64,000 nucleotides of DNA, from NCBI GenBank assembly GCA_033065855.1, contig JAVXUO010000408.1, forward strand, positions 186,001 to 250,000. The letters run 5' to 3'. The translations under genes and the position numbers were made by a program. This DNA comes from Escallonia rubra (Eukaryota > Streptophyta > Magnoliopsida > Escalloniales > Escalloniaceae). The notes under the pieces were generated by a model. It did not search any database, was not told the DNA's origin, and saw only the letters and a list, made by a program, of their open reading frames with translations. The first letter of the stretch is position 1. Each line of letters starts with the position of its first letter. Positions 882 to 61,800 of this stretch are shown piece by piece.

Positions 882-1030
882 GGGTCGTGATCCATCGCTA
901 GCGCTGGCAACTTGACCCAAGTTTCCAGCGCGATCTGGCCGTCCACGCGCGAAAATGGACAGCCATATCGCGCGCCACAACCGCCATTTTTTTCACCGTT
1001 CGCTACATAATGTAGCGGACGGATCACGAC

Positions 1031-1032
<2 letters not shown>
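882..1032. mobile_element. Short MITE related to the 42-kb Pack-MULE family
   Basis: This 151-bp element has perfect 12-bp terminal inverted repeats, GGGTCGTGATCC at the left and GGATCACGACCC at the right. It sits between short AT runs, so a target duplication cannot be read. Inside it shares GCGCGATCTGGCCGTCCA and the palindrome CGCTACATAATGTAGCGG with the larger element at 42472-44396. It has no coding capacity and is most simply a non-autonomous relative of that element. Confidence 0.7.
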
Positions 1033-18489: not shown

Positions 18490-19456
18490 AAACATGGTTA
18501 GTCTTTGGTCTTGTTCAGTGGAATACGTGGGGAATGGGGACACAGTTGACTTTGCAGAACTGCTTCAAAAGTACAGCTTTAAAAGCCTCTCGGGCAAAAT
18601 TTGGGAATCCAACCGCTCACTTTCTTAATGGGTCTAGACGATTTTTGAGCTAACACACTAAAACAAGCAAACCCACAACTCCCATCTGCCTCCCTCCCCC
18701 CTCTCTCTCTCTCTCTCGTTCAAACTCCAACCACTGTATCTTCCTCCATGTAATCCAATCTCTCTGTCTCTCTCCCCCCCACCAGTCTTTTCATACCAAA
18801 AAAAATATTTGCCACGGCCAAGTTAACAATCTCATGGCCACTAAAGGTGATGGTTGTGACTACTAATTAAAGTGTTTCAAAAGATTATGTTTAGTGTTGC
18901 TAATGTTTCATCAAAATTGCCATTGATGCTATCCAACCAACATTTTACAGTTTGATGACAAGGTTGATATAATACTTTTCTTGGGTATTATTATTCTATC
19001 CATTGCTGACCTTTTTCTCCAATTCACACATCGATCCTTCATTTAACTCTCTCTCTGTCACGCCCTTCATCCTACAACTGTTCTCCGTCTCTCTCTGTGT
19101 GTGAATGGAACAGTAGTTCGGTGGCCATTAAGGGCACCTGACAAGGTAAGCTCTCCCTTATCGCTTCTTGTCACCCATTTTAAGGTACCATTAAGACCTC
19201 CCCAGATTCCCAAAAACTTGCTGTACCCAACATCATTCACTGTTCCCAAGTAGTCCTCAAGAACTCGACCATACATAGCTGCCATGCACGCCTCCCCTGG
19301 CCAAAATATTTGCCATTCTTGAACCCAAAATGGCCCAAAAATCCTTATCTTTTGCTAGTTGTGAGCCTCTTTCAATCTTGAAAACGTGTCTCTTAAACTT
19401 CATCTTCTCTTCTGATCAAACTGCTCTCTGAGAGCTCTCTTCACCTGCAGCGTATA
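18490..19456 (+). promoter_or_regulatory. Upstream region and 5' leader of the receptor kinase gene
   Basis: This is the only DNA between the MITE and the kinase start codon. It contains CT-rich tracts near 18700-18720 and 18758-18780, common in plant core promoters and leaders. I cannot fix a TATA box or transcription start by eye. Confidence 0.4.
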
Positions 19457-30600: not shown

Positions 30601-32960
30601 AGAAACTATTTTCTATAAGAATGAGAAGTTCAAAGCATCCTTGACTAGCAGTATTTGCGAAAGAGATTTAAGAATGTGAAGTTGAAAGCATCCTTGACCA
30701 GCATTATCTGCCCTAGTAGTAGCAACTTTGTAGTTGAGTAGCTCTCCATGTGAAAAAGAGTTGAACAATCTTCTGCTCGAGAGGGAGTTCTACCCACAGG
30801 GAAGATCACTCTTGAAGTCCATAAGTGACTGTTTTATCCGAACAGGAGGTCATTACTTAAAAACTCATATTGGATAAGCCGCGCTTAGCCTATCCCTTTC
30901 TGTTACACTACTCCTTTGCAACTGTTGGCCATTTGGCTAATATATGAGCCTCTTCTAAGCTTAAATGAAGTACATTTAAAATTTCAGCAGACCTCCCACC
31001 TTCTTTGTTAAACTTCTTGCTAGCAGGACTGAGTGATTGTTTTATCCAAAGAGGAGGTCATTACTTAAAAACTCATGTTGGATAAGCCGCACTTAGCCTA
31101 TCCCCCTCTGTTGCACTACTCCTTTGTAATTGTTGGCCATTGGCTAATATATGAGCCTCTTCTAAGCTTAAATAAAGTACATTTAAAATTTCAGCAGAAC
31201 TCACAATTTCTTTGTAAAACTACTTGCTAGCAGGACTGAGGGACTCACCAAATAAGGCAATTGCAAGCCATCACCAATCTAAATCATTTCACCGTGTGTT
31301 ACATACCGACAACTTAAATGTGTATGATAGCAGTTTCAATACCTAAAGACAACTATGCATGTTGGAAGAGCTTCCATCATATATGCCACCAGACACTTCT
31401 TAACAAGATTCCCTAACCAAAAAATAGTGCATTAACTACCTAATTCAAACTTGAACGAAATATCCTTAAGCATTGATAGTTATTAGATGGATGGAAGCAC
31501 TCGTGCTTAAGAATTACAAATGCCTTTAGTGGGCCCTGAACTAATTGTCAAGTATAGAATATTCAGGGTGATAACTTGAACATGTCTTGGAGTCCAAAAT
31601 TAGTCAGTCAAAACTTATTCCACACAGGCACACAACCATAAGATCCAACTTTATTTCCTACCTTCCAACTTTATTTCCTAGCTAACTCTACTTAGCTTAC
31701 GAAGAGCACACAAAATTTGTTAAACACTTGTCTGCAGTACTAAAAGTACGCCTGACAGTCACTGCAGAGGCAGTAGTAGTCAATTAGTCATGTCCACAAA
31801 GCTTGCAAGGCAACCAAAGACTGTGGTCGAAGCAGTCAATTGTATAAACCTCAACTTTGCAGCTTCTAGCACCCACACCATTTTATCATCTTCAATAGCA
31901 GCAGAAAGTATAACACTCTCCGAGTTGACCATTAGGTATGACGCCAACAGGTTTGAGAAGCCACAATTAGGAAACCACAGTGACTTATGTTTTGGAGAAT
32001 GCTAATAAATTTCCAATCTCCTTGATCTAACTTTTCGACTCAACCTTTCATTTTCACCAAAAAACCAAGCATAGTTTTATGTTCCTCATGTCATAAATCA
32101 TACAACCTTCAATCTGGTTTGCAACGTTAATTAGTCACAAGTGTATCCACCTCATATCCTATCTATGGTGAGACTTTCAAATGTTTCTTATTCCACAATG
32201 ATACTAAACCACAACTCCGGATGCACTTAAAAAAATCCTACATATTCAACAACTTACAATAATATTCAAGGATTGGTATCATACTAGAAATGGGAGATTT
32301 GGGACTCCTACATATAGTCGGTTCATGGAAGAAGCATCTTAGCCATATGAATTCCCACCTTTAGTCTCCAAAATAGCCTCTCAACTTGATGTGGCATACT
32401 GTGAGCCAAGTGCTTCAGCAAAGACCGCGAACCACAGTTTCAAAGCAATTGGCTTACAGTGAGCCACATCATGTTGAGAGTCAACTCTAGCAATCAAGAT
32501 TAGGAAAATTTCCTAAATCAACCATTGCGAAAGAAGTAAACCTAAAATTAGAAGAAACAACAGCAGAAATGAGAAAAAGCAAAGTTAATTAGCGGAAGAC
32601 TGACCAAAGTAACGGCGCTCGTTGGCGGCCTTGGCTTTGTCGAGCATCTTGTCGAGATCCTCCTGGAGCTGGGCGTCCCACTTCACCAGCTGGGTCACGA
32701 ATACCGCCCCCAGCCCCATCCCCAGCACGTGCTCCCACGGATCTGAATGTATTATCCATCAAACATTGTTGTTATTTAGGGCTAATTTTGTTGGAATCAA
32801 TTCATCTGCTTGCATAAATGTGTGTGCGCGCGCAATGCATCGAGTGGTGTGGGGGGAAGTGTTACTCACGGCGCATGTAAGGGAGCTTGCGAAGGGCATT
32901 GGAGTACATCTGGGTGCCCAGCCCCAGCAGGGCTCCGATCATCGTCGCACTCGCCGGCAT
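24637..32960 (-). CDS. Mitochondrial ATP synthase subunit e-like protein
   Basis: Three exons read leftward: 32960-32870, 32742-32605 and 24653-24637, giving 81 residues. Splice sites are clean: C|GTGAGT, TTCAG|AT, G|GTCAGT and TATTGCAG|AT. The protein starts MPASATMIGALLGLGTQ and contains two Gly-rich stretches of the GxxxG kind (GALLG, GMGLG), a conserved MRHPWEHV, an acidic/basic helix and NERRYF, then DEDDD. From memory this matches the short plant family annotated 'ATP synthase E chain'; subunit e of the mitochondrial F1Fo enzyme sits in the inner membrane and helps dimers form through GxxxG. Without the last exon, exon 2 would run into a GQSSAN tail and stop, which I consider intron read-through. 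The second intron is about 7.95 kb and full of transposons. The exon chain is an inference from sequence; the functional name rests on recalled similarity. Confidence 0.75.
25011..26809. mobile_element. Stowaway-like MITE split by a later insertion
   Basis: The left end reads ATTTCTTCCGTCCCTAAATA and the right end, inverted, ATTCCCTCCGTCTCTATATA. Such ends normally bound a few hundred bases, but here 1.8 kb separate them, so other DNA (roughly 25290-26600) has probably inserted. That inner part contains a TATA-like 'CTATATAACCAAGCA' and repeated 'GTGAGACTCCAAGAAGG' phrases, perhaps a worn LTR. A second copy of the flanking sequence at about 28305-28520 lacks this element, showing the site before insertion. 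Confidence 0.5.
26810..28620 (-). mobile_element. Decayed LTR-retroelement remnants
   Basis: About 165 bp around 26815-26950 recur in the same orientation around 28355-28520, sharing 'AAATACTCCTAAAGCTAAAAT' in part and 'ATATTTTTCTCAT'. Sequence near 28163-28185 resembles, inverted, a TGGTATC-type primer binding site. These suggest one or two old leftward-reading LTR elements inside the intron. Many breaks are present, no domain can be named with confidence, and the elements are fossils. Confidence 0.4.
29308..29848. mobile_element. hAT-type element, TAGGGCTG family
   Basis: 541 bp with a perfect 8-bp target duplication, CTTAGTAG, at 29300-29307 and 29849-29856. The ends are TAGGGCTGCAAATGAACGAG and, inverted, TAGGGCTGCGAATGAACCGA. 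The interior is rich in GAGCTCG/GCTCGT motifs and has no transposase. It is related to the larger element at 47529-48611. Confidence 0.88.
30825..31245. repeat. 208-bp tandem duplication in the intron
   Basis: The block beginning GTGACTGTTTTATCC at 30825 repeats from 31033 as GTGATTGTTTTATCC, with shared landmarks GGATAAGCCGC and CTAATATATGAGCCTCTTC. The copies differ at about one base in fifteen. A shorter doubling of 'AAGCATCCTTGAC' lies just upstream at about 30630-30700. Confidence 0.88.
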
Positions 32961-35896: not shown

Positions 35897-37119
35897 ATTC
35901 GTAGGAAGTGGCTAAAAAATCAAGAAACGAAGGAAAATTTTTAAGGAACCATCTGAGTTGTGCATGAATTGCATAAAAAATTACACATGTGGGTCTCACT
36001 TTGCATGGCATGGTGTGTGTGTGAAGAAAGATGAAATAGTGTGTGTAAGGAGAAAGAATTCATAGGAAACTTACCTCCTACATGAAAAAGTGCTTGCTTA
36101 GGTGAAATCTTTGGTCCGAAGTCAGCAAGGAGTGATCATCCGGCCGATTCATCGGCCGAAATCGCGAGATTTTACTTATTTGTAGACCTCTTTTGTGTCC
36201 TCTCTGGTACAAATATATTCGGCCATTTTCAACGAACTGAGAGAAATTTGAATAGGATCTCAAGGATTTATATGCTAGATATGTGATTAAGGTAGGTTTA
36301 CACGATTTAGAGTCCTTAGGAGAAAGAAATTTGAGAGAGATTGGAGTGTGATTGGGTTTGAAGTGTAAAAAAAAAACTCTAAAATTACGCACAAAGCCTA
36401 AACGGGTTAACCTACCATTTTTTAAATTTAAAATTTCAAAAACTCTAACACGACTGATAAACCGGCCAGTTTTTAGCCAATATTTCAAAAGTTTCAAAAA
36501 CCTGCTGACTAACCAGCTGGTTTTCGACTCAAATTTTTTAAAAAATATAGTATTCTAACTGACTAGCCAGTTTTCGAACCTGAAAAAAAATAAGGAAAAA
36601 TTTTGCATTTTTGCATAGAATACAAATGTGCCTGAATGTTTGGGTGCCTCGTGTGCTTGCGTAATTATTACTTGAATTTGTGTGTTTGTCAGCCTGTGCA
36701 TTTTGCATGATATTTAATTCATTCTGCCAGCACGTTTATTCAACATTTGTGTGCTTGCATGTGCATGTTCATTACCTTATCCCCGGATTGTTTTACGATC
36801 CAAAATTTTGAATATATTGTTCAGTTCAGTGATCTTTGTATGGTATAAGGTCAGTACAAGATCATGTGCATGTTGCTGGAAGTAACATTTTCTTCGAATC
36901 AATTATATTGATATGTTCCGCACTCAACAATAAATTGTCTTTACGACATTGTTGCCTCCGGCTTTGAGTGATAATTTCAAAATTCTAGTATCTAAGCGAC
37001 CATCGATGTGACGCGTTGTTGGCTCAGGCTCTTAGATATGAATCCGGTTTCGACTAAGCGACCAACCGCTTTCACGCGTTGGTGGCTCAGGGCTCTTAGT
37101 CGAGACTCCACTTCGCCCA

Positions 37120-37660
37120 TCGACTCTTCCAACTTGTCTCAAGGGGTCCGGCAACGGCCAAAGTCATTTATATCCTGTCTGTCAACCCTTTCCACTTGTC
37201 TTAAGGGCTCTGGCAACATGGAAGATTCTTTTGTATATCTAGACGCCCTTCTAACTTGTCTTGGGAGCTCCAGTGACTAGGTATACGACTCTACTTTTCC
37301 CGTCAACCATTCCAACTTGTCTTGGGGGCTCCGACAACGGCCAAAGTTACTTTTACCTTGTCTTTCGACCCTTTGAATTCGTCTTGAGGGCACTAACAAC
37401 AGGCAAGATTCATCTTGTATGTCTAGACAACCCTTCCAACTCGTCTTAGGGGCTCTGGCATCTAGATATACGACTTTGTCCATCAACCCTTTCAACTAGT
37501 CTTAAGGGCTTCGGCAACGACAGCGTTAATTATTTCTTTTACATGTCTAAACGACCCTTCTAACTTGTCTTGGGGGCTCTGACATCTAGATATGGATTTT
37601 GTCTGCCGACCCTTTCAACTTGTCTCATGGGCTTCGACAACATGCAAAAATTTCTGTAAT
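37120..37660. repeat. Array of about 55-60 bp degenerate monomers
   Basis: A phrase of the type CCCTTCCAACTTGTCTTGGG followed by GCTCTGGCAAC recurs roughly ten times with many substitutions. Alternate spacers hold 'CTAGATATACGACT' or 'GGCCAAAGTTA'. Two related 60-bp units with AAGCGACCA and GGCTCAGG lie just upstream (36990-37110). Confidence 0.75.
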
Positions 37661-37814
37661 ATATTGTCCGAGGACCAATTGCTGTTACAGTTGGCTCCGG
37701 CTTCATACTTGTGTGACGGTCCTTGGGTCTGTTCTGATTCTTGTGGTTTCCCTACCAAAAGTGCTATTTTCAGGTGATGTTCGCCAACTTGCGAGCTCCC
37801 TCACCGAGGGGCTT

Positions 37815-39143
37815 TGTAGATACCCCATTTTTGTAGTCATTATTAAATAAATAATTAGTAGAGTTTATTATTATTTAGAGTTTATTATTGAACCTAGGCC
37901 AAGTAATATGACTTAATTAATTAATTTCGTCCAGTTTATTCAAGTTAAATGGCTAAGTCCAATTGTCAAGTCCATTGGTCTTGTCTAGACCAACAGTCCA
38001 GTCCTGTTTAGTGCTCCAGTTATTAAATTGGTTCAGTCTAGTTCGATTGTGTCAGTCCAATCCAATGTCTACATTTTATTATTTTGTTAGTTTGTCCAGA
38101 TAATTTAGGAAAATAATCTGTGAATTATCCATGATCCAAAGATTAAATCTATAATTTATATGGTTAAAGATGAATTATATTGAATCTGGTACATCCCATA
38201 TGCAAAATCAGAGATAATTATCGAATTTAGGGTCAGATAATGCCTCAAAAATCGAAAAAAATCATTTTTAAATTATGGAATGAACTGGTCGGTTTTTGAC
38301 CAACTAGCTGGTTAATTGACATTTGTCAATTTACTATTTTATTCAATTATCTGACTTATCTCCAGCCTTACAAATTAGTATAGTCAATCATATCAAATTC
38401 TGCGACCCTGAGCTCTATAAATAGAGGCCTGGGCCTTTATTTTTAGGGGTCTGGAATTCAAGAGCTTATTCTTTTTAGAGCTTGTGTATCATTTCTCCAT
38501 GAAGTGATACAATATCACTCTCGAGAATTTTAGCCACTCATACTTACTTCAAAAGTCTTCTTAGTCTCTGCATCGTGGATCCTTCGGATAACGTCCCCGA
38601 GTCTTCGATACAAGATACTTCTAGAGGTATTTTTAATAGGTTTCTAGTGTAGAGAAATCATTTTAGAGTTGTCTCCCATCCCCGTAGTCAGATTTTCGTT
38701 ATAGAAGTAAAAAAAAAGTCTTTATATTTCTCTGTCTAAGTCTACGACCTAAATGTAGATTACTTCATGTAGGACCAGAGTCGAACTACGACGGTTTTGA
38801 ATTGAGATAGTCCGATTGGATACGTAGACAATCTGACATCTGATGTCGAGTTTAAGCCAAAAGCAAAAAAATAAACTTATAGGTGATATTTATTGCACTT
38901 TACATGTTTTTTAAGGCCAATAATTAATAGAAATGAAGTAGAGATCGAAAAGGCGCAGCGGGAGCCTAATACCTTCCCGCTGTGTAACTTAGTCCCCAAA
39001 CCCGTCTCCCAGTTTTTGATAGAATAGTTGTTCTTTTGGACACTTTAGAATCATTTCTAGATTTTTCTTGTTTTCCTTAAATTAAATAAGATGATGACTC
39101 ATAAAATCCTCTTAGAGAGATTTTCCCAAGACGGTTCGCTACA
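37815..39143 (+). mobile_element. LTR of the Tat-like fossil
   Basis: The 1.33-kb unit starts TGTAGATACCCC and ends GGTTCGCTACA, so TGTAG and CTACA are inverted ends. A TATA-like CTCTATAAATAGAGG lies at about 38412. The five flanking bases do not match, so it is not a simple solo LTR; the preceding GAGGGGCTT suits a polypurine tract of a 3' LTR. Confidence 0.65.
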
Positions 39144-40383
39144 ATTTGGTTTTCTTGTAAATTAATGGACTATTATCTCCTTCTGAAGCTTTAGTTTGGA
39201 AATGTTGTACTTCTCTGTGTATTATTTGGTGTGTGTCTCATATAAAAACATCTCTTCTAATTAATATTCTTAATACTAAGCAGAAACAAGCAAGCATATA
39301 TGTTTGCATACCACTTTCCTTTTATTTTCCATAACCACATATTAACCAAACAAGATACATAGCTCGGGTGGTGAACATCTACAAACAAATGTTGTTCGTC
39401 CATAACATACCAATAACTCATGACACTCGATATCATTAGTGACACTAAATATCATGGCCAATTCATGAACGTCGTTTCTATGCTCCAACAATGCGTATGA
39501 TGATATCTTCCATCATCAAGTATGATGCTCAATAGACCAACATATGTTGTACTTTGTCGATATGGGGCAGCAGCAGGTTTCATCTACTTTGAATGGGCTA
39601 AAATTGTGTTTGAAATATGAAATTAACATTGCATTTGAAAATAAAACATGCATATTTGAATAGCACCCTACCAAAATAAATGATTCCAGACAACATTTTT
39701 TGCACTAATACTTCTCGTCTTGATGTCAAAATAAAAGCCAAATGTATTGATCATAAGGTTAACCACATGGTAGCTTTGTCGCAAGGTACGCTCGCGTATG
39801 GCAACAATCGTAAAAGCTGAATCCACGTTCTTCGGAGAACATTCCTTGTACAGCTGACCAAGCAACCAGTGAAATATTCCATTTATTCCATACCAATTCA
39901 ATCCCATAGATACGAACATACTCATTAACTGAACATACTCATTAACTGCAAGTAAAGTTTTTTGTGACCACATCAATGCATTAACCTTGTTATTCATGTT
40001 CAAGAGAATGTAAAGTAATTGCATTATAACGTATTTCTATATGAGATTTGAGCACAACCATCATGTCTAAATCCAATAAAAAAGTTAAGAGAATAATACC
40101 ATATCAACAGCACCCTTATAAAAAATAAAAGTCATGATATAGAACTCGATGATCGAACTCTTCAAACCACTGAAATGCATAATTTTTAAAAATCCTAGGC
40201 AAAAGAGTTTTCCTATATAAGAAGAAGATGAAAAGACTATTCAATTTGTACTTACAAATTTTTACAGTGTAACTTATCCCAACCAAAATCGCCTTACATA
40301 ATTTATCTATATAATATATAATAAGCGAATCGATAACTTCTTTGCATGACACATCATCATAGAGATAACTTCTTTACTTTTCA
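39144..40383. other. AT-rich stretch with worn leftward open frames
   Basis: Leftward frames at 39668-40024 and 40116-40352 are long for such AT-rich DNA, but I recognise no domain. They could be remnants of a host gene or a repeat. No start, splice or motif evidence lets me call a gene. Confidence 0.3.
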
Positions 40384-40747
40384 CGACATCGTATTATGTA
40401 TTCAATGTGAGATATAATTGTAAATCTTATAGTATCTCTAAAGATCTCAAATATTATCTTGGATTGGGTCACTATCTCTTAATAAGTTAATTTTCATATC
40501 TGTAAGTCTTATATAATAACTAATTCTAAACATTATGAAACTCTAACTAATTAATGAACTAACTTACTAGGACTTAATTTTAATTATTATATCCTTAAAA
40601 CCACTCTCTGATATCAATATAAAAATTCATATATCGAAAAAACGAAAATAACATATTAGATTTATTAGAGAAGAAAAAAATGATGTTACATTATAGTTTT
40701 CGATGTAAAGATTTAGCAATATAATATATAGTTTTTAGAATCCTTTT

Positions 40748-42014
40748 TGAAACCAATAAAATAACCCTAGAGGGGGGGGGGGGGTGAATAGGATTTTAAG
40801 ACTACTTTAAAAATTAACAAACAACAAACCTCAATCTCAATAACTCAAATAAGCAAACAATCAATCTCAACACAAATGTAAAACGATAATGTAAAGAGAG
40901 AAGTGTTTAGAGATACTTGACAAGGAAAATTAAATGGTTCGGCTTGATATACCCACAAGCCTACGTCCACCCCTTCAAGGAAGTCCCTTGAAAGGCCCTA
41001 GAATCCACTAGTATGATCTTCCTTACGCGTCAAGATCGAACATCTTACAATCCCTTGATGCTATGCCCACATCAAGAACAAGCTTTGACAAACCCAAAGC
41101 TCCACCAAAGCTTGACAACCCCAAACTTTGATACAAGAACCTTTCAATGAAGAAATGTGTACAAGATTTCACTCTCAATAAGTAGATGAGTACAAGTTGA
41201 AGTACTAGAACAAGAGAGATGAGTGTATGATGACTTATGAAAGTGTATCTCTCTCTAATGTAAACTCACAATAAATGCTCTCTTGAAAAGGATGAGAAAT
41301 CAATGAAAACAAGAGAGATTTGAACAATTGCTTTGATCTTTGAGAATATGAAAGATATGAGAGCTTTGAATGCAATTGATGAATGAAAACTATGCCCAAG
41401 ATGAGTATTTATAGAGGTGAGAATAAATATGACCGTTTGGGGTTAGGTGGAGCATTAAATGCGCCAAACGGTAAATGCAGTCGACTGCAATGGACCATTG
41501 CAGTCGACTGTAACCCAAAAGTAGCCGTTGGAAATTCAAATTTCAAACTTGCAGTCGACTGTAATAGGCTACTGGAAGTATTGCAGTCGGCTGCATTCCA
41601 ATGCAGTCGACTGTAATACCTCACTGGCCAACTTGCAGTCGACTGCATTCCAATGCAGTCGACTGCATTCCTGAAAATGCAGTTTTCTTGTTTTTAAAGC
41701 ATGAAAAACTTTTATGCATGCAAGGGAAACCTATGGGCAAGTTCTAGGTATACAGTCATCGTAACGATCATCTCTCTAAGTCTAGTTTACAAAGACAGAA
41801 ATAAAAGCATGAAAACTTCAATCGACGAATTTCCTCTTTGATGCGTTCCGTTGAGAGTCTTTGACCGTGTTGCTCGTCTAATAATCCGTTTGCATGAGTA
41901 TGAGATTGTTCCTATTGCTTCATCAACTCAATGCATGTTAGACAGCATAATCATCAATGTTAGTTATCATCAAAATCAAATATGATCCTAGGTTAAATAA
42001 CCGTAGGGTTAACA
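40748..42014 (+). mobile_element. Solo LTR with perfect target duplication
   Basis: The unit starts TGAAACC, ends GTTAACA and is flanked by CTTTT on both sides (40743-40747, 42015-42019). Joining the flanks gives CCTTTTGATAAAATAAAAT, which matches the uninterrupted repeat copy near 49893 (CCTTTTGGTAAAATAAAAT). A TATA-like GTATTTATAGAGG lies at about 41405. No internal region is present. The LTR resembles those of Ty1/copia elements, an inference only. The perfect duplication suggests it is fairly young. Confidence 0.82.
41470..41690. repeat. Cluster of TGCAGTCGACTGCA palindromes
   Basis: Seven or eight exact or near-exact copies of the 14-bp palindrome TGCAGTCGACTGCA lie within about 210 bp, downstream of the presumed TATA box of the solo LTR. 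Each contains a SalI-like GTCGAC core. Confidence 0.93.
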
Positions 42015-42412
42015 CTTTTGATAAAATAAAATATTGACTTTATCTTTTGGGTGAGACCAGCAACCAACAAATGACTATATTATTATTATTAATTAAAATT
42101 ATGATGTTGATAAAGCTGATTCATAAATATGATAGTTGAAAAGGACTTAAAGCTATATACTAAACATGCTAGTCTATCTAAAGGTATGCATATATTATTT
42201 TGGATGTGATTCTTATTTTTAAGTTTGTTTATGTTATAGAAGCTATATGAAGGCTATATGAAAAGCATTATATAATCTGAAAAATAATCCTAAAACTCTA
42301 AATATATACAATTTTTTTAGGATTTGATTTTGACTATCATGTTCTTAAAACTAACTCTCTCTTATGAAGATAAAAAATCATGTATCTAGAAAATTAAAAT
42401 ACCATATGAGAT

Positions 42413-42473
<61 letters not shown>

Positions 42474-42695
42474 GAGCTGATCCGTTGAGAGCGTTAGCAA
42501 AATAGGAGAAGTTGCAAGCGCGATCTGACCGTCCATCCTGAAAGATGGACGGTCCAGATCGCGCCTTTTTCGAATACTGTCAGTCGTCCGCGATACAATA
42601 TAGCGGACGGACTTTTTTACCTTTTTGCCCTCTGACCCGTCCGCTATACTATATCGCGGACGGTCCAAATTTTTTTTTTACGTTTTTTTTAAGTT

Positions 42696-42990
42696 CGTCC
42701 GCTACATAATGTAGCGGACAGAGGCCCCATACTTTTTTCTGACTTTTTCTCTTTCCTTCTCTGACCACTTTTTCTGACTCTTTCTCTCTCTAAAATATCG
42801 TCCGCTACATTATGTAGCGGACCATATTTCAGAGAGAATTACTTCGTCCGCTACATTATGTAGCGGACAGAGGCCCCATACTTTTTCTGACTTTTTCTCT
42901 TTCATTCTCTGACCACTTTTTTTGACTCTTTTTCTCTCTCTCAAATATCGTCCGCTACATTATGTAGCGGACCATATTTCAGAGAGAATT
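42696..42990. repeat. Two tandem 149-bp units with palindromic ends
   Basis: The block from CGTCCGCTACATAATGTAGC to CATATTTCAGAGAGAATTAC is repeated head-to-tail at 42696 and 42845. Each unit holds two copies of the 22-bp palindrome TCCGCTACATNATGTAGCGGA around a CT-rich spacer. Confidence 0.9.
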
Positions 42991-43254
42991 GATGTTGGTA
43001 AACGTAATGGCAATGCTTGTCAGGGTTTTCGGTTACCACATGCAAACTCCAGGTGTTAGCAGGTTCTTCATAATGGAGCAAGGGAACTTGCTCCTTTTGA
43101 CTGTTTATCCATTATCCATTATTTGGTGGCAAGTTCAGTACACTGCAGTTTAACATGCCAAACTGTGAAAAGTTACATTATGTTTGCCCGCGATCTTCTC
43201 TTTCTGATGTCTGTATTATATATGAAACATAATTGTAACTTTGGAACTTTGCAG

Positions 43255-43410
43255 CGTGAGGACTCGGGTCCTGCAGATTCAAGTACTCTATCTCAGCCTC
43301 AGAAAAACAGAGCAATCGTTTTTAGCAAGAAACTTACCCCTTCTGACACAAGCACACACGGAGGATTTTCTGTTCCTAAGCGATATGCTGATGAATGCTT
43401 TCCACCTCTG
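43255..43410 (+). pseudogene. Captured auxin response factor (ARF) exon
   Basis: This 52-codon exon is bounded by a good acceptor (GGAACTTTGCAG) and a donor-like GTTGGT. It encodes [10 protein letters not shown]..., then [17 protein letters not shown] and [19 protein letters not shown] is the start of the ARF B3 DNA-binding domain, and ARF genes are known to have an intron right after the FPPL motif, as here. About 250 bp of left and some right intron-like DNA came with it, so capture was at DNA level. Only a small piece of the B3 domain is present, so no functional factor can result. The parent ARF was not identified. Confidence 0.85.
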
Positions 43411-43599
43411 GTTGGTACTTTTGTTGGGCTTCTAATGATAACCACATAATCTCCTCTTATGCTGTTAATAAGGAAAATAATTGCTAATGTTTGAAGCCTG
43501 AAGATTTCTCCCTTTTGACTATTTCTTGTGACCTTTTCCTTCAAGCACTTGCAGTAGTCCAAACCTGACAAGATCGGCCTTGCAATGAAAATAGATCAG

Positions 43600-43828
43600 G
43601 TGATTGGTCTGGTGGCGGCAGCGGCCAGATAGAAGAGAGAGAGAGCCTCGGGAACTCAAACCCATCAGATCTGGTGCGGTCTTGTGGGCGGTGGTGCTTG
43701 GTCTGGGGGCGGCGACGGCCATAGAGAAGAGAGAGAGAGAGAGAGAGAGGGCCTCGAGGACTCAAACCCATCAGATCTGGTGCGGTCTTGTGGGCGGTGG
43801 TGCTTGGTCTGGGGGCGGCGACGGCCAT

Positions 43829-43867
<39 letters not shown>

Positions 43868-43940
43868 CCTCGAGGACTCAAACCCATTCAAACCCATCAG
43901 ATTTGGTGCTTGGTCTGGTGGTGGCGGCAGCCAGAGCGTA
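43600..43940. repeat. GA-rich tandem repeat of about 95-110 bp
   Basis: Units containing CTCAAACCCATCAGATCTGG, CTTGGTCTGGGGGCGGCGAC and a GAGAGA run recur three to four times, the unit lengths differing in the GA run. The open frames across it are by-products of the repeat. Confidence 0.85.
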
Positions 43941-44393
43941 GAGAGAGAAAGCCTCGGCAAGAGAGAAAAACCCATTGAAAGTGAAATGAATGTGTTTCTC
44001 TGGTTTACTTTGAAAGTGAAATGAATGGGGGGAAAGGACAATAGGGTGGGGCCTTCAGCAAATCATGCCCACAGCAAATGTGTGCCTGCCTACTCCTCCG
44101 CTACATAATGTAGCGGATGGAACAGGAGGCTATTTTTGTAAAAAAATCGTCTGCTACATTATGTAGCGGACGAACTTAAAAAAAACGTAAAAAAAAAATT
44201 TGGACCGTCCGCGATACAGTATAGCGGACGGGTCAGAGGGCAAAAAGGTAAAAAAGTCTGTCCGCTATACTGTATCGCGGACGACTGACAGTATTCGAAA
44301 AAGGCGCGATCTGGACCGTCCATCTTTCAGGATGGACGGCCAGATCGCGCTTGCAACTTCTCCTATTTTGCTAACGCTCTCAACGGATCAGCT

Positions 44394-44432
<39 letters not shown>

Positions 44433-45126
44433 GATTAATTTAAGTTTATTATAATTCAATAAATATATATGTATTTACACATAACATGATCATTGAAAAA
44501 AAATATACTAAATAAATTCAATAATCAAATTATTGGACAATTTGTTGCTTTGATAAGACCGCACGATCAAGAAAGTGACTATATAAGCACATATAAGATT
44601 TTGAAAAGAAATCACCTATTTACTAGAAAAAAGAAAGGTGCAATTAAATTAAATAATTTTTAATTATTATATTTGACAACATTTAGAACCCTTAAGATGC
44701 AAAAATATAGTTTGTAATGGTTTTATGTTTCCAATGTGAAATAAAATTATAAACATTATAAAGGTCTTTGAAGATCTCAAATATTATCTTGAATGGGGTC
44801 CTTATTTTTTTAATAAGTTAATTTTCATATCAATAAGCTTTATATAAATGAGAAACTAATTCTAAAACTCTAAAATACACATGACTCCTACTATCTTTTT
44901 TTATTACACTAAGTTACATATTTTTATTTTTCAGTTAATGGAGTTAATAAATTAAATGAAAAGACTTTGATGCCCCTCATAAACAAATAAATTTACCTCT
45001 ATCTCTCTATCTCTCATACACACAACCACCAACACACATGTGACACACACCAGCGACCGGTAACACCCTCCGGCGATCGCCAACTCGCTCCGGTGACCAA
45101 TCACGACCACCAACAACCCCACCAAT

Positions 45127-45791
45127 CATAGTTATGAATACCGTACCGGAGTGCGTACCGTTTTCTCCACGAAACGGTACGTACCGGTACCGGTATCGTC
45201 TCAAGATTTTCATCAACAATATATATTTGTATTATTTATTCACTGGTGAACTAATAATATATACATATATTTTTTACTTACAGGTCCTCTAAAATAAACT
45301 GTTCATCAAATAAGCTAGTTTGTTAAATAATAATGTCTTTGGTTCAAGAATAAGTTATTTTTGTGTGTGTGCATGTGTGTGCGCGAGCGGGTGTGTGTAA
45401 AGTAGTACATCATATAGATGAAAGAATATGATCAAAGTTTACAGGTATGAAGTAATCAAAGATAAGTGAATATTGAAAACTTATCAGGAACGATAGCAGG
45501 AGGCTACAGAGGTTTTGATTAGTATAATAGAACTTAGAGTGTCTTTATGGTCAATTTACAAAATTTCTAATAAAATTTGTTACTTTTATATTTTTTTAAA
45601 GGAACCGGTACAAAACACAATATCTCGGCCGGTACGCATTTTTCGCCCGATATCACCTGTACCAGCCGGTACAACGGGTACAGAGCGGTATTTTAACCGG
45701 GACAAAATTTAAGAGATACCGTACCAGTAAAAGGCAAAAATGGTACGTACTGAGTGGTACGGCCGGTACTTGTACGGTATTGATAACTATG
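45127..45791. mobile_element. hAT-type MITE, CATAGTTAT ends
   Basis: 665 bp with ends CATAGTTATGAATACCGTAC and, inverted, CATAGTTATCAATACCGTAC. It is flanked by CCACCAAT and CCACCAAC, an 8-bp duplication with one change. The subterminal regions are rich in CGGTAC/GTACCG inverted motifs. No coding capacity. Confidence 0.8.
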
Positions 45792-46432
45792 CCACCAACC
45801 GCCACTCACCAACAATACTATCCCTTCACCTTACTGACAGACCACCACCGCAGCCACCACAACCCACCACCCAGCAACACGCCGGCAACCCCACCACACA
45901 GCAACACCCTACAGCCTCCGATCGCGTCCCATCGCCTCCCCCGGAGCAGCCAACCGTCACTTTCCAGATCCTTCGTTGCACTAAGGCCCCGCTCCAATCA
46001 TGGGGAACTCTGCCACCACCATGCCCGCGGAGTCCAATATGTATGTGTCTCCGGTGCCGGTGGGTCAGATTGTGGAGATTTGATCCCTCAAAACGATGGT
46101 CGACGACGGTTTTTTTTCAAAATCATAGCTAGGCCCCTCAAAACCAATGTCGGGATCTATCTTGTTCATAGATCTATGACGACCGGTCCTCAAAATCATG
46201 GTCAGCGGTGGTGATGCTTACTGATGGTGAAAAATGATGGCCTGATCTGGTCACCGGCGGTGTGGCGAAGTGCGGTGGACAGGGGCGGAGCCAGGATTTC
46301 ACCTCAGGGGGTGCTAAAAATATATCGAAATTAATAAATTATTTTATAAGTAAAATGGCAAACAAAAAAAAGGTGCGTTTTTCGATAATACACAAGAAAT
46401 ACAAAAAAGTATACAAAAGGTCTTATTAAATT

Positions 46433-46681
46433 TCATGTCCAGAATAACACATAATCCCAAATATTCGGACGTAACCCAGGATCGGCAATAAGCTCGTCAG
46501 AGTTGAACTCATCACTAATTCTGCTTGAATGCCCGGAATAAACATCACGATGAACAATGGGAGCCTTGTCCCTTACTGTTGGGTTTGGCGACTGTTGAAT
46601 ATTATCTTGATTTCTATACTCATTCTTATTAGGCTGCAAGAGTTCTTCCAACTTTGCTTTCTTTTTAAAGAACTTTTCCAT
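46433..46681 (-). pseudogene. N-terminal piece of a hAT (TTF-type) transposase
   Basis: The frame starts MEKFFKKKAKLEELLQP and ends near ELIADPGLRPNIWDY. This matches the start of the plant TTF zinc-finger/hAT-dimerisation proteins, which usually read 'ME(R/K)FFKRK...' and '...LP.DPG.R..I.DYHPN.RD'. The family is about 700-800 residues; only about 80 remain before a stop close to the element's end. The zinc finger and catalytic core are lost. Confidence 0.65.
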
Positions 46682-47528
46682 TCTGGGAAAAAAAAATTTA
46701 TTTTCAATATCAATCCATCAATTATCAATCAAATAACCTAATTAATCAAATAATTTTATTCTTTTACTTTTCCAGTCATGTTTCATTATCACGTTAACCT
46801 AATTAACTAAATTTCAACCTATCATTCAACTAAATCACACATTCAATCCAATTGGGTCCCATCCTCTGTCAACAATCTCAATAATCACACATTCAATCCA
46901 ATTGGGTCCCATCCTCCGTCAACAATCACAATAATCTCAATCAATAATCAATAATCACAATTAATAATCAATAATCTCAATAATCATCAATCAATAATCA
47001 CCCATGCAGCCATACTGGAATATCAAACTAGATAACTAACCTAGAATGCTTTTGCTTCTACAAAATTGAATATTGAGGAGTTACTGTATGCTGAACATCT
47101 TTGTTGTTCATCCATTGATATGATCAGACCACAAATCTACTAACATCGAACAACATTGATCTTTATAGCATTTCAGAAAAGAAAAAAAAAAGTCATCTAT
47201 GTTTGGGTGGCAATGATGTTTGATGCAATTATAGCAGAAGACGAGGATATAAATGGTGGTTTGAGGTTGGCAGATTAGGTTTTGATTCAGCATTTTTGGT
47301 CAGATTGCAAGGCAAACTTAGTTCAACCCTAGAGTTGATGCACCCACTAGCCTATCAAAGGGTGTAGTTTCCTGAATGCTTGCCTCACAACTCACAAGTC
47401 TCCTCTTGGGTTGAAATTTCAATAAAGCATGAAGTTTGTTGTTTCTTATATCTACTTGTAGCACAGAAATACATAGTACGTCTTGCATATATTTTATGGT
47501 TCCTATTCTTTAACCAGATGCCAGCAGG

Positions 47529-48611
47529 TAGGGCTGTAAATGAACCAAGCCGTTCGCGAACGACTCGTGGTTCGTTCTCCACAAAACTCGTTCGTTCGTA
47601 TAATATATGAACCGAACATGAACAAGTTTGTAGGGCTCGTTTATTAAACGAGCCGAACATGAACACACTAAAATATTCATAAACACCTTCGCGAACAGCT
47701 CGTCTAAATATTAAATTAATTATAATATATTTACATAATTAACATTTACATAAAAGTTCAAAAATTAAATTTTATAGTTGAAGGCCAGGCCTTGAAGTCA
47801 ACCCAAAATCCCAAGCCCACTTATTAACATAAAGCCCAACCCTTAAATAGTCCAATCTATAAAGAGCCCAACAAAAACCCTACTATATAAACTAAAACTA
47901 ACTAAAACCTAAACCTAAACAACCTAAACATTACAACTCAGCCGCACTCTGCATTCACACAACCGTACTCTCCATCCCTTACCTCGTCACACACACACAC
48001 ACACACACACACATAGACCCCTCCCTCTCTCCCTCTCGCTCTCACCTCTTCAGTCTTCGCAAATGGACATCATGGATATCACGCCGCCGTCATCTCCCAA
48101 TCGCCGAATCAACCTTTGTCACCGGATTCAACCTTTAAAGCTGCAAAGTCGCAAAGCCAAGTTTTTGATCTGCAAATCTATCGCCTGCAAAGCCAAGGGC
48201 TCAACCTCGAATGCATCAAGTCATTGTCTATGTCTTCATCGATGATGTATCAGATTTATTTTTCAGTGTTTTTGAGTCTGCATCGCTCCTTGTATCTTCT
48301 ATGTCTCATTTTTTTTTTATTAATTATAGCTTGATTGGGTGAATGATTTGAGGATTTTGAGTAATTTTAAAACTTTGATTGGAACTTGAACATGAATGCG
48401 AAACGAGCTTCCGAACTCGAGTTCGGCTCGTTTTGTTAAACGAGTTAAGCGAACCGAGCCCGAGTCTCACCGTCACGAACACGAGCCGAGTTCAAACGTT
48501 AATATTTTGGCTCTTGACGAACACAAGCCGAGCTCGAACATGCTAAAACTTAAACGAACCGAGTTCGAACACACCCATGTTCGGCTCGAACTCAGTTCGT
48601 ATACAGCCCTA
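47529..48611. mobile_element. hAT-type element, TAGGGCTG family, nested
   Basis: 1083 bp with a perfect 8-bp duplication, CCAGCAGG, at 47521-47528 and 48612-48619. Ends are TAGGGCTGTAAATGAACC and, inverted, TAGGGCTGTATACGAACTGA. The subterminal DNA is dense in CGAACTCG/GTTCGG motifs like the 541-bp relative at 29308. A small frame from 48063 (MDIMDITPPSSPN...) follows a CT-rich leader and could be the remnant of a transposase first exon. It lies inside the larger hAT element. Confidence 0.88.
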
Positions 48612-49202
48612 CCAGCAGGCAACAAACTAGTCAAACCCACACTTCCAAATTTGAGCATTCATGGCAAGATTAAGGTGAATCGGAAAAATTGAGCTAAGAA
48701 ATACTAAAAATAAAGTAAATAAATCTTGTAGAGTTGTAGAGATGGAATCATGGCAAGATTAAGGTGAATCAGAACATAACTTTGTCGCCGATTACTCTGC
48801 AGGTGGTGAAGATCGAAGAAGATTGGGATTTGGGAGCTCAGAGATGTAGCCTGTTAGCGCCGGTCGACTGGTGGAGTGACCGGAGGACAGAGGTCTTCAG
48901 AACTCAAATCGGTGCTGCCGGTGTAGAGGTCCCCGTGAGGCCGTCTGTCGGCACGTAGCGGTGTAGATCTAGAACCAGATCTAGATCCAACAGAGGTCGC
49001 CGTCCGTCGTGGCTTCGTGTCAACTGTCGTGGGCTCTTGGCCGTCGTCGTCGGTTTGTGCTTCGCCGGAGTGAGGCGTCGTGGCCGTGACTGAGATTGTA
49101 AGGAGGTCCGATCTCCGAGGTCGTGTCGTTGCTCATGGAAATTGGAAGGAGAGAGAGTCGACGAAAGAGAAAAAAGAGAGAGAAAGGCCAAAATTCTAAA
49201 TA

Positions 49203-49238
<36 letters not shown>

Positions 49239-49859
49239 AATCTGAGGGGGTACATTAGCCCTCCCTGGTGCAAGTGTGGCTCCGCCACTGGCAGTGGATG
49301 ACTGTGGTGATGCCACATGTTACATGATGATGATGTAGTGCGACACAAGTGTGTGTTTGGAGGTGTGGGTGCTGTGTTTGGAGGTTAGTGGTGCTAGATC
49401 TGGTGTTGTGGTAGTGCTAGATCTGTTTTGGTGGTGGTATCTTGTGGGCAGTGTGTTTGTGTTAGTGCTTTTATGTGTGTGTGTATGTGTGTGAGAGAGA
49501 GAGAGAGAAACAGTGGGCAATGGTGTTTGGGGGGGACAACGGTGGCGCCGGTGGCAATACCGTGGAGCCGGCGACGGTGGCTAAAGAAGAAGACATGTTA
49601 AAGGGCAATTTTGGTAGTTTATAAAATATTATGTGGTGACCTCACTTTTATTCACGTAAACTTAACGATGTGGAGTTTTGTGTAAACATATTATAAACCT
49701 CAGGGAGCAGAGTGTAATAAAAAAAAGATGGTAGGAGCTGTGTGTACTTTAGGACAAATCTCAGTAGTACCGTGTGTAATTTACCCTAATAAAATAATGT
49801 AAAAATTGACTCATATTTATATTATGTTAGTATACGTTTACCGTAATCGTTGTAAATAT

Positions 49860-50620
49860 TTATCAATATATTATATAGCTTTTAGCATCCTTTTGGTAAA
49901 ATAAAATAAAAACTTGACGGTATTTTTTGGGTGGGAGCACACGGCATACAAAAAACTGTATAATTGTTGTTAATTAAAATTGCAATAATCATAAAAGCTT
50001 ATTCGTTATCCTAATACTTAAAAGTGATTAAATGTTATATACTAAACATGTTTGTGTATCTAAAGGTATGCAAATACTATTTTAGAGATGTGATCCTTGC
50101 TTCTAAGTTTATTTAATTTTGCAGGAACTATATGAGGGCTATATTAGGGAGCCTTATACAATTTGAAAACTAATTCTAAAACTCTAAACATAGTAATTGA
50201 TATTGCTTTAATTTTGACTATTTTGTCCTTTAAACTAACTCTCTTATACGAAGATAAAAATTCATGTATCCAGAACACAAAAATAACATATGAGATTTAG
50301 AAGAAAAAAATTATCTTATAGTTCATTTAGGTTTATTATAATTTAATTAAATTATATATTTTTATGCATAACAAAGTCATTGCAAAATTATGTATGTAAA
50401 ATATAAGATAAATAACAAATTATAGGATTTTTTTTGCTTTGGTGACCGCACGATCAACAAAGTAGTTATATCACACGTATGAGATTTTCAAAGAAAAAAA
50501 TCACATATGTATTGGGAAAAAATATATACATTTAAATCAATAATTCTTAGTTACTATATATAAGAATATTTAAAATCTTTAAGATGCAAAAAAATATCCA
50601 TGTAATTCTACAAAACTAAC
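49860..50620. repeat. AT-rich dispersed repeat, least interrupted copy
   Basis: This copy carries in one piece the phrases that are split elsewhere by the solo LTR and the Pack-MULE-like element: CATCCTTTTGGTAAAATAAA, ATCTAAAGGTATGCAAATA, ACATATGAGATTTAGAAG and GACCGCACGATCAACAAAG. It therefore serves as the empty-site reference for both insertions. Confidence 0.7.
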
Positions 50621-51754
50621 AATTAGCCAGTTCATTTTTACATAGGGCCCTTATGATCAGTAAAAATACTTTTTTCATTTACACTTAATTAAATTTTCGT
50701 GAAAAATAAGACTAATCGGTAAATCTTAGACAACTTATAAGCATTAAAATTTAATTATGATTATAGTGGTATTGATAACAACTCTGAGTGCTGATTATTG
50801 TGCGGATTCAGTAGCAAATAGTTTATTAACGCTTGCCTGATAAAATTAGCCTAATATAATCCTTTGTAACCTCATTATAGTTATATGTATATAACCTGAC
50901 ATATATTGGCATATAAATGTTATTTTATATTTTAATTAAACAAGTGTAATTCATGAGAAAATATCATTAAATGCATATAGTAGATATAGAAACTATAACT
51001 TGGCGACAAATAATAGTCATATAAGATGTTGATGCCAAGGAAAGTGGGTTCGTACCTACGTGGAGGTGCCACAAAGGCTACAGTCCGAGTCAGATGCCAA
51101 GTATGTTGATGTGAGACACAACAAAGGTGGAACAAGGACAGAGACCAAGGGCTTCCCAGACAGAGTTTGAGGGTGGTAGTGCTGTGAGGGCGATAGCGCA
51201 TGATGAATACACGACGACAGTCACTGTCCGATGCTTAGGTCTAGAGTTAGGGTCATGTATGTTTCTCTCTCTAGGATTCTAAAGTGAGAAAGTGAAAATA
51301 TGTTCTGAAAATGTCCAACCTTAATGTTATGTCCCAAATGAATTCTCAAGACCTCTATTTATAGAGATTGAGATGATGATGTCATTAACTAACACGTGGC
51401 GCCCCCGGGAGTGACACGTTATCGGGGGGTCCACGGGTGCCGGTGCTCAACAGACTGTGAGATCGCATATTCACCCGGCCTGCCCCGCACAGCGTCGCTC
51501 TGTCTGTCTTGAAAGACTGGCTCCCACAACGGTGTGGCCAGAGAACCCCCTTGATCTAGCCTCTAATCCAAGCCCTTGCGGAGTCCCACAGGCCTGGCAG
51601 TGGTGGGGAAGACCCGACGCCCAACTGCCAGGTGAACTAGGCGCGATGCCCTCCGAAGACCTGCTCCCGTCTCGGAGTGACCCGGGGGTCATAGTCCCTA
51701 GGGGTGCCGACGCAAGCCCCCAGTGCCGGAGCACGTAGGCCAGTCACACAGACA

Positions 51755-57390: not shown

Positions 57391-57434
57391 AGATTTGGTC
57401 TGTCCATTCGTGATAGATGGACGACCAAATCGCG
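57391..57434. mobile_element. Hairpin relic of the Pack-MULE/MITE family
   Basis: GATTTGGTCTGTCCAT and ATGGACGACCAAATCGCG are inverted around a seven-base loop, matching the 'CGATCTGG(A)CCGTCCATC' hairpin in the TIRs at 42.5 and 44.3 kb. It directly adjoins a TA array, as the other two family members do. Confidence 0.5.
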
Positions 57435-58259: not shown

Positions 58260-58822
58260 CGTCCTCTCTAAGACTGACCCTGTAGGCTTTGTCCTTTTGG
58301 TTCCTGTTCCAGCTTCCAGTCCCTCCCTATTCCGCTTTTACCCACATTGTTTCCCCATTCTCGGAGCCTTTCAACACCTCTCTCTCTCTCTCTAGAGAAG
58401 TGCTAAAATAAAGCGTTGTAAATATAGGCAAGCGCGTAATTCAGCTAATTGAGCGGTTGACGCTTTAATTCCCCCCAATAAAACAGCTCTTCCTTTTGCC
58501 TTCCCCTCCCTCTGTTTTTGTACCACCAAGTAAGTTGTTGGTCGTCCTTGTTCCTGCAGTTTAGGCATTTCCATTGCACACAGAGAGAGAAAATTACAGA
58601 AACCTGTTGAGAAATTGGAGACATGGGTTTTCCTTCTTGTTGATGAATATTGTGACCCTTTTTGGCATTTTCTCTGTTCTGATCACATTGCCTTCCGATG
58701 ACTCCTTCTGTCATGTCCATTCCCTTCCCCTGCTTTCACCAAATGGGCCATGTTCATTTCCCATTCGGGTTGTTTTTCTCGGTGGAAGCACGTTGAATTG
58801 CCTCCAATTTCAATTTCAACAA
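58260..58822 (+). promoter_or_regulatory. 5' leader region of the RING gene
   Basis: CT-rich runs (58379-58395) and no stop in the coding frame for 83 codons before the chosen start mark this as probable leader. An upstream in-frame ATG lies at 58574. I cannot fix the transcription start. Confidence 0.4.
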
Positions 58823-61800
58823 ATGGCGTCTTCCCAAGTCGAAATCGCGTCGTCTTCGCCTTACGGTTGTGTCCTGACGGATCACAACCGACGAGAACGG
58901 TACAACTCCCGAGCATCCTTTCAGAAGAACCTCAAAGATTTGGTTAGGGACCATCTCCAATCCTGCATTTCGGCACCTTCAAGAAGCTCTGTTTCGGAAT
59001 CCAGTGAAGATTCCAACCGCCAAACTGACAATGCAGAGTCCTCTGTTTTCAAGGAACAGAGCAATGCTGACAATGGCAATAGCAACAAAAGGTCGAAAAT
59101 CCACGACCGATGGGCACGAGCGCGTGAAATTGTGTTTTCGAATTCACCGTCTTCGAATTCATTCACGTTTCAGAGAGAAAACTCTCCTGCATATTCGGAT
59201 GGTTCTGTGGAGATACCGAATTTGGGTGGCGTTTCTTCATTGGTTCAGAAATGGAGGGATTTTGAAGCGGAGGCCAAGAATTTGAACTCCCCAGTTTCCA
59301 GCAGGAGCAATTCCGGGTCTACATTCACCGAAAATGCGTCGTTTGTCGAAATGCCTCATAGAGGGAATGACGTTATTGAATATGTTGGCGAAGAGAGGAA
59401 TGAAACGCCAACGATGATCGAGGAGTACGCGTTTGGGGATTGGGATTCCGATAGGACGGTCCCTAGTGGCACGCCTTCTTCGAGGGGAAGAGATTCGGAT
59501 GCTGCAGAGAGCGAGCGGCTCAGGGTGACTGACATAATTAAGAAACTGTCATCGGCCAATGCTGGTGGTGGTAATGACAATAATGATTGCGAGCAGCAGC
59601 AGGCTGTGGGGAACGATGCAGTGTTGCCTCGAGTGAGGACACCAATGGATCAGCCAGAAAAGAGAGGTTTGCAGGCTGTTGCGAGTTCACCGAGGATTAG
59701 GGGGCGACAAGCGTTCAGCGATTTGCTTATGCAAATGGAGCGCGATAGAATACGGGAGCTTGAAGGGCTGGTTGAGCGGAAGGCCGTTTCAGGATTCTCA
59801 CACAAAGGCCGCATTCAGGTAGTAATATGTTTACAAGTAAGAATTTGGCTTGCTCATTGTATGTGATGTGTTCTTACAGAAGTTGTATGCACATATGTAC
59901 ACAGGCTTTGCTTCGGCTTAGATTCTTACGCCGTGGAACAGAAGTCAGGGATCGTGGGCATTGCCTAACAAAGTCTGATCAGTCGAGTAGACTAAAGCAA
60001 TCTACCATCATGCATCTCAGGTAAAGCTCTTTCTCATTTTTCATATACATGGTCGATCGAGAAGTGAACATGCCTTCCTTTTGTGTGATTGTGTCATCTT
60101 ACCAAAATGTTTTAAACTTGACTAATTTCACGTACAACATGATTGCTCATGCACCAGATATTGCAACGCAGTACAATCAGGACATGCATATATCTAATCT
60201 AATTGCGAGTGTGCACTACATGTGTAATAATTTAGAACTGTTGAACTCTAATTCATGCTGGACCACTGTCTAGTCTTCAATGAGTTTAGTGGTAAACGTA
60301 CTCGTTCAAGCTATATTATTACCTATTTTTGGCATTGCATTACAGGGATAAAAGGGGCAGGCTCTAGAAAATTTGAAGTCCTGTTATAGGAAACCTCTTT
60401 TTCTTTTTTCTTTTTTGGGAGGAAATTCTGTTATTGTAAAGCACTTGGTCTTCTACTGGATTACTTAAACCTTAGTCTAACATTTTGTCATATGAAATCA
60501 ATTCAATTCAGGGAAAAATTTGGCCGGGGGGTTGAGCATGGTGCAGCTGACTCAAGAACCCCAAACGTAGACAAGTCTTCTTCCTCCAGTCAACTTAGAG
60601 AGGTCACAGATAACACCACAGATACTGAAACTTCTTCTCTCTGCATCCGAGTTGGAGATGGGGTTCATCACAAGGAAGTCACTAACTCGAAATGTCCAAT
60701 TAGAGAGGTCACAAATAACAATGCCTTTGAAGTTGCAGGTCGTTGTACTGCCAATCAACTCGATGAGGATATACATCAAGATGCTAATAGCACTGTGCAG
60801 CAGAATGTTTTCGAGGTACAGCACTCAGAAAATCCCCGTGCAAAAGCTAATCCAACATCATGTGTTTTATGGCCAGTGACAAGTTCTGCAATCAGCAATT
60901 TTGGGTCACAAGAATCTGCCGATGAATCGGCGTCCCTGACTCATAGGAAGAAGAAAACAAAGGCGGAAGAGCAGGTGACAAATAACCAGCCACTGATAAC
61001 ATCGAGTCATGACTGGTATAATGATGGTTCACACTTGCAGATAGATTTGGAAGAGCAAAAGGTGAATAACAGGCATCTAAAAGAAGTTGACTGGGACTAC
61101 AAAAGTGATGCTTCTCACCCAGAAAGCGAATTCGAAGAACACGAGTTCAGCGACCAACAGCTATTTGATACCAGTCATGACTGGATAAATGATGTTTCTC
61201 GCCCACGGAGAGATTGGGAAGGTCTCAGGCAAGCGAGGTATCAGGAGATGCTTGATCCTTACATGGACAATGGAGACATAAGACAACTCCTTGAAAGGTA
61301 TACAAGCTATTGTTCAGTATGCGTTTGAAGTAGGTAGGGCAATAGATCTTAGGATCTTAAATTGGATTTCACGGAGGCATGACCAATTGTGGATGTACTT
61401 ACATATTACTGACTAAAACCAAAAATGCGTAATCATGTGGATTATGCTAGCTCAAAATGTTTCTTTTGACAATATTGAAGCACTTGTAGCACTCTCTTGT
61501 ATCAATATGACTTGGTAACTTATGTATGCAGACGTAGCGTCTCAACCTTTCTGTCCAGTGGTATGCGAGAAAGAATAGACCAATTAATGGTGTATCGCAC
61601 ACAAAGACATCCAGATCATATTGGTAGTAAGGTAGAAGAAGATGTGGAACAAGAGAGGAAGCAACGCGAAGACGTGGTGGAAGACGATGGAGAGGAGGAA
61701 GAGGAAGAAGACGAGGGAGAAGATGAAGAAGATGAGAGGCTTCTTGGGAATCATTATGAGGAAACGGGAGAGTATTATGACCAAACCACGTCCTCATTGC

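Follow-up and report, generated by a model that had tools for sequence, protein, structure and literature searches.

TA-microsatellite-associated Mutator-like transposons of plants include the MuTAnT, Micron, SaTar and Ac-mMITE elements. In Medicago truncatula, MuTAnT elements are described as having foldback terminal inverted repeats (TIRs) built from modules, GGGG/CCCC ends and mostly (TA)n flanks; the TIRs of the founding example span 144 bp and the average is 47 bp, and 9-nt target site duplications (TSDs) are reported for the 14 of 218 copies that are not embedded in perfect (TA)n (PMC4486113). A set of 1435 Ac-mMITEs is reported from pineapple, with 9/10-bp TSDs in the copies that have no flanking microsatellites (PMC8449440). 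The paper on SaTar elements links rice Micron with a Mu-like transposon that is autonomous, recounts that at maize TAFTA insertions the TA stretches expand after insertion, and weighs competing models in which the TA arrays are either the target or the product of insertion (PMC5907723). Capture of host gene fragments is documented for Pack-MULEs, among them maize Mu18, which holds a fragment of the auxin response factor gene ARF15 together with a calmodulin fragment (PMC3276141). Pack-type capture extends beyond MULEs to the CACTA, Mariner, PIF and hAT superfamilies (PMC8903248).

Here we describe an element that brings features of these systems together in a window of Escallonia rubra DNA, the window being the whole 64-kb stretch that was analyzed. 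The locus combines inverted repeats, an auxin response factor (ARF) exon, TA flanks, a paralogous empty site and one clear relative in the same window. We interpret the element as probably a non-autonomous transposon of the MuTAnT/Micron/SaTar/Ac-mMITE kind, i.e., a TA-microsatellite-associated Mutator-like element, with at least one copied ARF exon and adjoining non-coding DNA. The boundaries of this microsatellite-associated, exon-carrying element are clean, and a paralog that lacks it lies at a distance of about 6 kb.

The element occupies positions 42472..44396 (no strand assigned), which is exactly where an initial annotation had placed it; it is 1925 bp long, begins with GGGAGCTGATCC... 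(42472), ends with ...GGATCAGCTCCC (44396), and is delimited by 248-nt inverted arms at both ends as well as by the paralogous empty site. The left arm (42472..42719, plus strand) is hairpin-rich and 98% complementary to the right arm (44149..44396, minus strand): 243 of 248 positions are identical, and the 5/248 mismatches are transitions only (K2P 0.0206). The minus-strand self-match of the element reaches 425 bits (word size 11), whereas random sequences generated from the element's own dinucleotide frequencies never exceeded 41.0 bits in such a self-match (n = 50 sequences, word size 7), and the long, near-identical TIRs named in the initial annotation are thereby confirmed. With 248 nt and 98% identity, they are the long terminal inverted repeats by which MULEs are recognized.

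Folding the left arm as DNA gave -63.3 kcal/mol (z -10.5), a value equaled by 0 of 200 shuffles. The arm contains a terminal hairpin module, GCGCGATCTGACCGTCCATC...GATGGACGGTCCAGATCGCGC (42516..42567, plus strand), which is paired in the DNA fold and has related modules at 927-973 and 57391-57434. It is followed at 42586..42719 (plus strand) by three 23-nt motifs of the form GTCCGC...GCGGAC, with copies at 42586-42608, 42639-42661 and 42697-42719; in the left-arm fold the first and second motifs pair with each other, and the third forms a hairpin of its own. For a transcript across the element, RNA folding predicts pairing of 245 of the 248 left-arm bases with the right-arm region. Self-comparison also revealed a subterminal tandem duplication on the element's left side (42694..42990, plus strand), with a unit of about 149 bp.

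Pattern searches placed TA microsatellites on both sides of the insertion, a configuration typical of the TA-microsatellite Mutator-like families: a (TA)23 array (42425..42470, unstranded) lies at the left end of the element with one T between them, and a (TA)16 array (44397..44428, unstranded) starts directly at its right end. The 9-nt flanks both read TATATATAT and lie inside the (TA)n arrays, so that no target site duplication can be scored.

Sequence comparison and folding identified a 151-bp relative at 882..1032 (unstranded) with similar termini and hairpin modules and with (TA)25 on its right. Its termini, GGGTCGTGATCC...GGATCACGACCC, agree with those of the element at 9 of 12 positions; it contains a similar terminal hairpin (927-973) and an ATGTAGCGGACGG module, and its fold has a z of -8.1. 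The TA array is present on the right only, the left side being TAATATATA. A degenerate hairpin module at 57391..57434 (plus strand) lies one base from a (TA)24 array and is probably what is left of a third relative. The match is modest: it scores 32, whereas the next unrelated position in the window scores 27 and the best scores in 20 shuffles range over 20-28; these shuffles were simple ones that do not preserve hairpin structure. The (TA)24 array near this hairpin then runs into (TG)n. Copies of the family in the 64 kb thus amount to one 151-bp relative with a one-sided (TA)25 and one possible hairpin remnant. The window contains five arrays of (TA)7 or longer, and four of them touch the element's hairpin family. 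As the element itself accounts for two of the four, one on each side, the four arrays represent three independent loci. At the array at 49206, no member of the hairpin family was found among the top scores. The pattern GTCCGCTACATWATGTAGCGGAC had 0 matches in viral contigs and 0 in prokaryotic genome contigs, a result that is little informative for plant-like sequence.

These TA associations bear on two other classifications. The first, implied by the initial annotation, is a canonical Pack-MULE that has no preference for TA and reached a TA-rich site by chance. TIRs of more than 200 nt around a captured exon fit such an element, Mu18 with its ARF15 fragment being an example of the cargo (PMC3276141), and the TA preference rests on three loci in 64 kb, one of them weak. 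We consider a chance landing unlikely, however, because the 151-bp relative, and probably also the hairpin remnant at 57391, adjoin long TA arrays. The second is a Tc1/mariner-type element, characterized by a TA target duplication, that captured the exon and would thus be a Pack-Mariner. TA does stand on both sides of the element (within the arrays), Pack-Mariner elements are known in rice, and virtually all detected rice and maize Mariner elements have TA TSDs (PMC8903248). Against this, the arms are long and built of hairpins, the GGG...CCC ends resemble MuTAnT, and the flanks are long TA arrays, not a single TA, which is a trait of the TA-microsatellite Mutator-like families. The termini are presumably also unlike the plant Stowaway consensus, and altogether we rate a Pack-Mariner as quite improbable.

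Window self-BLAST revealed a related empty site, i.e., paralogous host DNA without the element, at 49890..50596 (plus strand) with the join at 50298-50311. The left flank (42015-42413) aligns to 49890-50297 with 75.9% identity (E 1.8e-73) and the right flank (44425-44709) to 50312-50596 with 74.7% identity (E 6.7e-41); both matches are in order and on the same strand, and 14 A-rich nucleotides stand in place of the 2011 nt of the element locus. Since the flanks are contiguous in the paralog, the element is an insertion into an older repeat. The empty site, about 6 kb away, is a paralog of about 75% identity, not an allele. A third, partial copy of the host DNA (40574..40688, plus strand; 79.3% identity to 50208-50318) runs across the insertion point and likewise contains no (TA)n.

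In both paralogous host copies, one full and one partial, the insertion point is an A-rich stretch without (TA)n; the occupied copy has (TA)23 and (TA)16. The host copies are paralogs of only about 75-79% identity, too diverged to establish whether the arrays were there before the insertion. The element bears on the question of whether insertions are directed to existing TA arrays or create them. We tentatively suggest, as a possibility that we would not yet favor, that TA-microsatellite Mutator-like elements include a gene-capturing lineage whose TA arrays arise at or after insertion and are not its target. If the arrays were indeed a product of insertion, elements of this type would give rise to microsatellites at the very sites where they shuffle exons.

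Between the arms lies the ARF exon (43255..43410, plus strand), which was delineated by translation, phmmer and Pfam; it is 156 nt long, a multiple of three, and its 52 open codons cover the N-terminal quarter of a B3 domain. A phmmer search against the PDB matched it to 6sdg 'Auxin response factor', 4ldv 'Auxin response factor 1' and two near-identical sequences with E 2.3e-10 to 2.4e-10, and to 4ldu 'Auxin response factor 5' with E 1.1e-8; the remaining three of the 8 PDB sequences listed at E up to 1 are non-ARF B3 proteins (E 0.063-0.57). The ARF exon recognized in the initial annotation is thus upheld by 52 stop-free residues with a best ARF match at E 2.3e-10, and the element holds a host gene fragment between its TIRs, as Pack-MULEs and other Pack-TYPE elements do. 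Its description as a B3-domain exon has to be narrowed: B3 sequence is present, but the Pfam match spans the first quarter of the domain only (profile positions 1-27/101; E 0.007), and its 16.7 bits fall short of the gathering score, which is 30.1. No whole B3 domain is therefore encoded, and the encoded part is too little for a DNA-binding domain.

The edges of the exon coincide with splice-type signals. The ARF match starts 7-14 residues past a TTTGCAG acceptor and stops at residue 52, exactly before GT; the sequence 5' of the exon reads ...AACTTTGCAG, and that on its 3' side begins GTTGGT. When sites were scored against splice-site consensus strings, the acceptor was among the 3 best of 94 AG sites in the element interior, in line with the intact acceptor claimed at the outset, and the donor was ordinary, 9 of 61 GT sites (itself counted) scoring equal or higher. 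This coincidence makes a genomic-DNA source of the exon likely, and to that extent the initial proposal of capture from genomic DNA holds, with the identity of the adjoining introns putative. Judged from its sequence, the DNA beside the exon would likely be intron of the same ARF: a putative non-coding intron on the 5' side (42991..43254, plus strand; 5' limit assumed) ends in TTTGCAG, and another on the 3' side (43411..43555, plus strand; 3' limit approximate) begins with GTTGGT. An ATG-started reading frame of 89 codons, recognized as an open frame only, runs from the putative intron through the exon (43180..43449, plus strand).

Inspection of the six reading frames by eye showed no ARF continuation downstream of the exon. 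A small exon-like stretch lies at about 43555-43602. The remaining cargo includes a GC-rich block (43593..43975, plus strand) of repeated units with GA runs, which comprises direct repeats D4-D6 and has a G+C of 0.577 over 43593-43980; this block is possibly a second captured fragment.

The neighborhood was covered by a six-frame Pfam scan of 36001-50999, in which stops were read as X. This interval yielded no whole ARF gene and no Mutator transposase domain (0 families at E up to 0.1). The scan is insensitive to short or weak matches, as it reported neither the captured exon (E 0.007 when queried as 52 residues) nor a Myb/SANT-like match, so it speaks against whole domains only. As far as Pfam sees whole domains in 36001-50999, then, the exon is not part of a full local ARF gene; the opposite finding had been named in the initial annotation as fatal to its reading. 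The absence of a transposase from the same interval is as expected for a non-autonomous copy.

The exon might otherwise be the remnant of a local ARF gene, or a processed pseudogene, lying by coincidence amid unrelated inverted repeats. Apart from the presence of the ARF exon itself, nothing speaks for this origin. The acceptor and GT are kept beside the exon, the paralog lacks everything between the flanks, and the six-frame scan of 36001-50999, although insensitive to fragments, returned no Pfam family; we regard a local remnant as scarcely credible.

Other features of the window were recorded alongside. The Myb/SANT-like match to PF12776 is partial and, at E 0.00083, too weak to reach the cut-off of the family; it falls in a 122-residue ORF at 39671-40036 on the minus strand. 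Pfam identified an LRR receptor kinase gene at 19397-23317, which may be GSO1-like; it has a stop at 22865-22867 in a stretch that looks like an intron, and the remainder of the kinase continues in the same frame. Tandem duplications are found at 15237-15869 (316 bp, 96% identical) and 30824-31243 (about 210 bp, 91% identical), and overlapping direct repeats of about 72% identity at 37104-37641. Long ORFs at 58565-59863 and 60390-61325 had no Pfam match at E up to 0.01.

Under plant substitution rates of 6.5e-9 to 1.5e-8 per site per year, the arm divergence of 0.0206 translates into an age of about 0.7-1.6 My. That all five arm differences are transitions would fit an elevated rate due to cytosine methylation, and the element could thus be younger than this estimate. 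The recent movement proposed in the initial annotation is consistent with arms that have diverged by about 2%, but this figure dates the last likeness of the arms, not the capture. We do not read the near-identity of the arms as dating the capture, since the two units of the subterminal duplication of about 149 bp (95% identical) are more diverged than the two arms are from each other.

Most likely the exon is mere cargo and has no function as protein. A functional role would be compatible with any of the origins considered above: the exon could act as a small chimeric peptide, or as an antisense or small RNA, that modulates the parent ARF. It is open and is crossed by the 89-codon ATG frame, but only 27/101 B3 positions are present and open frames of such length say little; such a role appears very unlikely to us. 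Transcription across the element, should it occur, could let the two arms pair into double-stranded RNA and supply small RNAs, possibly with consequences for a related ARF; any effect on ARF regulation or auxin signaling is speculation.

Returning to the TA-microsatellite Mutator-like interpretation, the following course of events would account for the locus. An ARF genomic segment may have been acquired earlier between the arms, presumably in the manner of Pack-MULEs. A transposase supplied in trans would then have acted on the terminal repeats and mobilized the element, which would have inserted into the AT-rich DNA of an older repeat that is present, whole or in part, at least twice more in the window. 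From the features of the locus we infer that the element is affiliated with Mutator, that its transposase acts in trans, and that the exon came from genomic DNA, as well as the route of capture; the assignment to the Mutator superfamily is indirect because no transposase was found in 36001-50999 and the TSD is unreadable within the arrays. The label Pack-MULE-like, given in the initial annotation, is retained for this non-autonomous element with its inverted repeats and ARF exon, and the (TA)n flanks and hairpin-built arms refine that label toward the TA-microsatellite Mutator-like families.

The published termini available for comparison were the MuTAnT TIR mask (PMC4486113) and the end bases of Ac-mMITE (PMC8449440) only, and both differ from those of the element. 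With MuTAnT it shares TIRs made of foldback modules, G-run/C-run ends and (TA)n flanks, whereas MuTAnT has a mean TIR of 47 bp and 90% of its copies measure 200-300 bp, against 248 nt and 1925 bp here; the MuTAnT TIR mask is GGGGTTTGCTAGAACA, in contrast to GGGAGCTGATCC, and host-gene capture, present in this element, is not described for MuTAnT in the parts of the report drawn on here (PMC4486113). Compared by description, rice Micron and rSaTar and guayule gSaTar are likewise non-autonomous, Mutator-related and delimited by microsatellites; unlike this exon-carrying element, rSaTar1, 3 and 5 are classed as non-Pack-MULEs (PMC5907723). Ac-mMITE resembles the element in its preference for TA microsatellites, and its family 1 has TIRs 140-180 long, but Ac-mMITEs measure 510-570 and 210-270 bp and their end bases are mostly GA / TC (PMC8449440). 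The combination of traits was not found described in the literature searched, whose coverage excluded most subscription journals. By its cargo as described, Mu18 is a comparable Mutator element with an ARF fragment, differing in that it has a calmodulin fragment too (PMC3276141). Each trait of the element has a precedent, and for the capture of an ARF sequence that precedent is maize Mu18.
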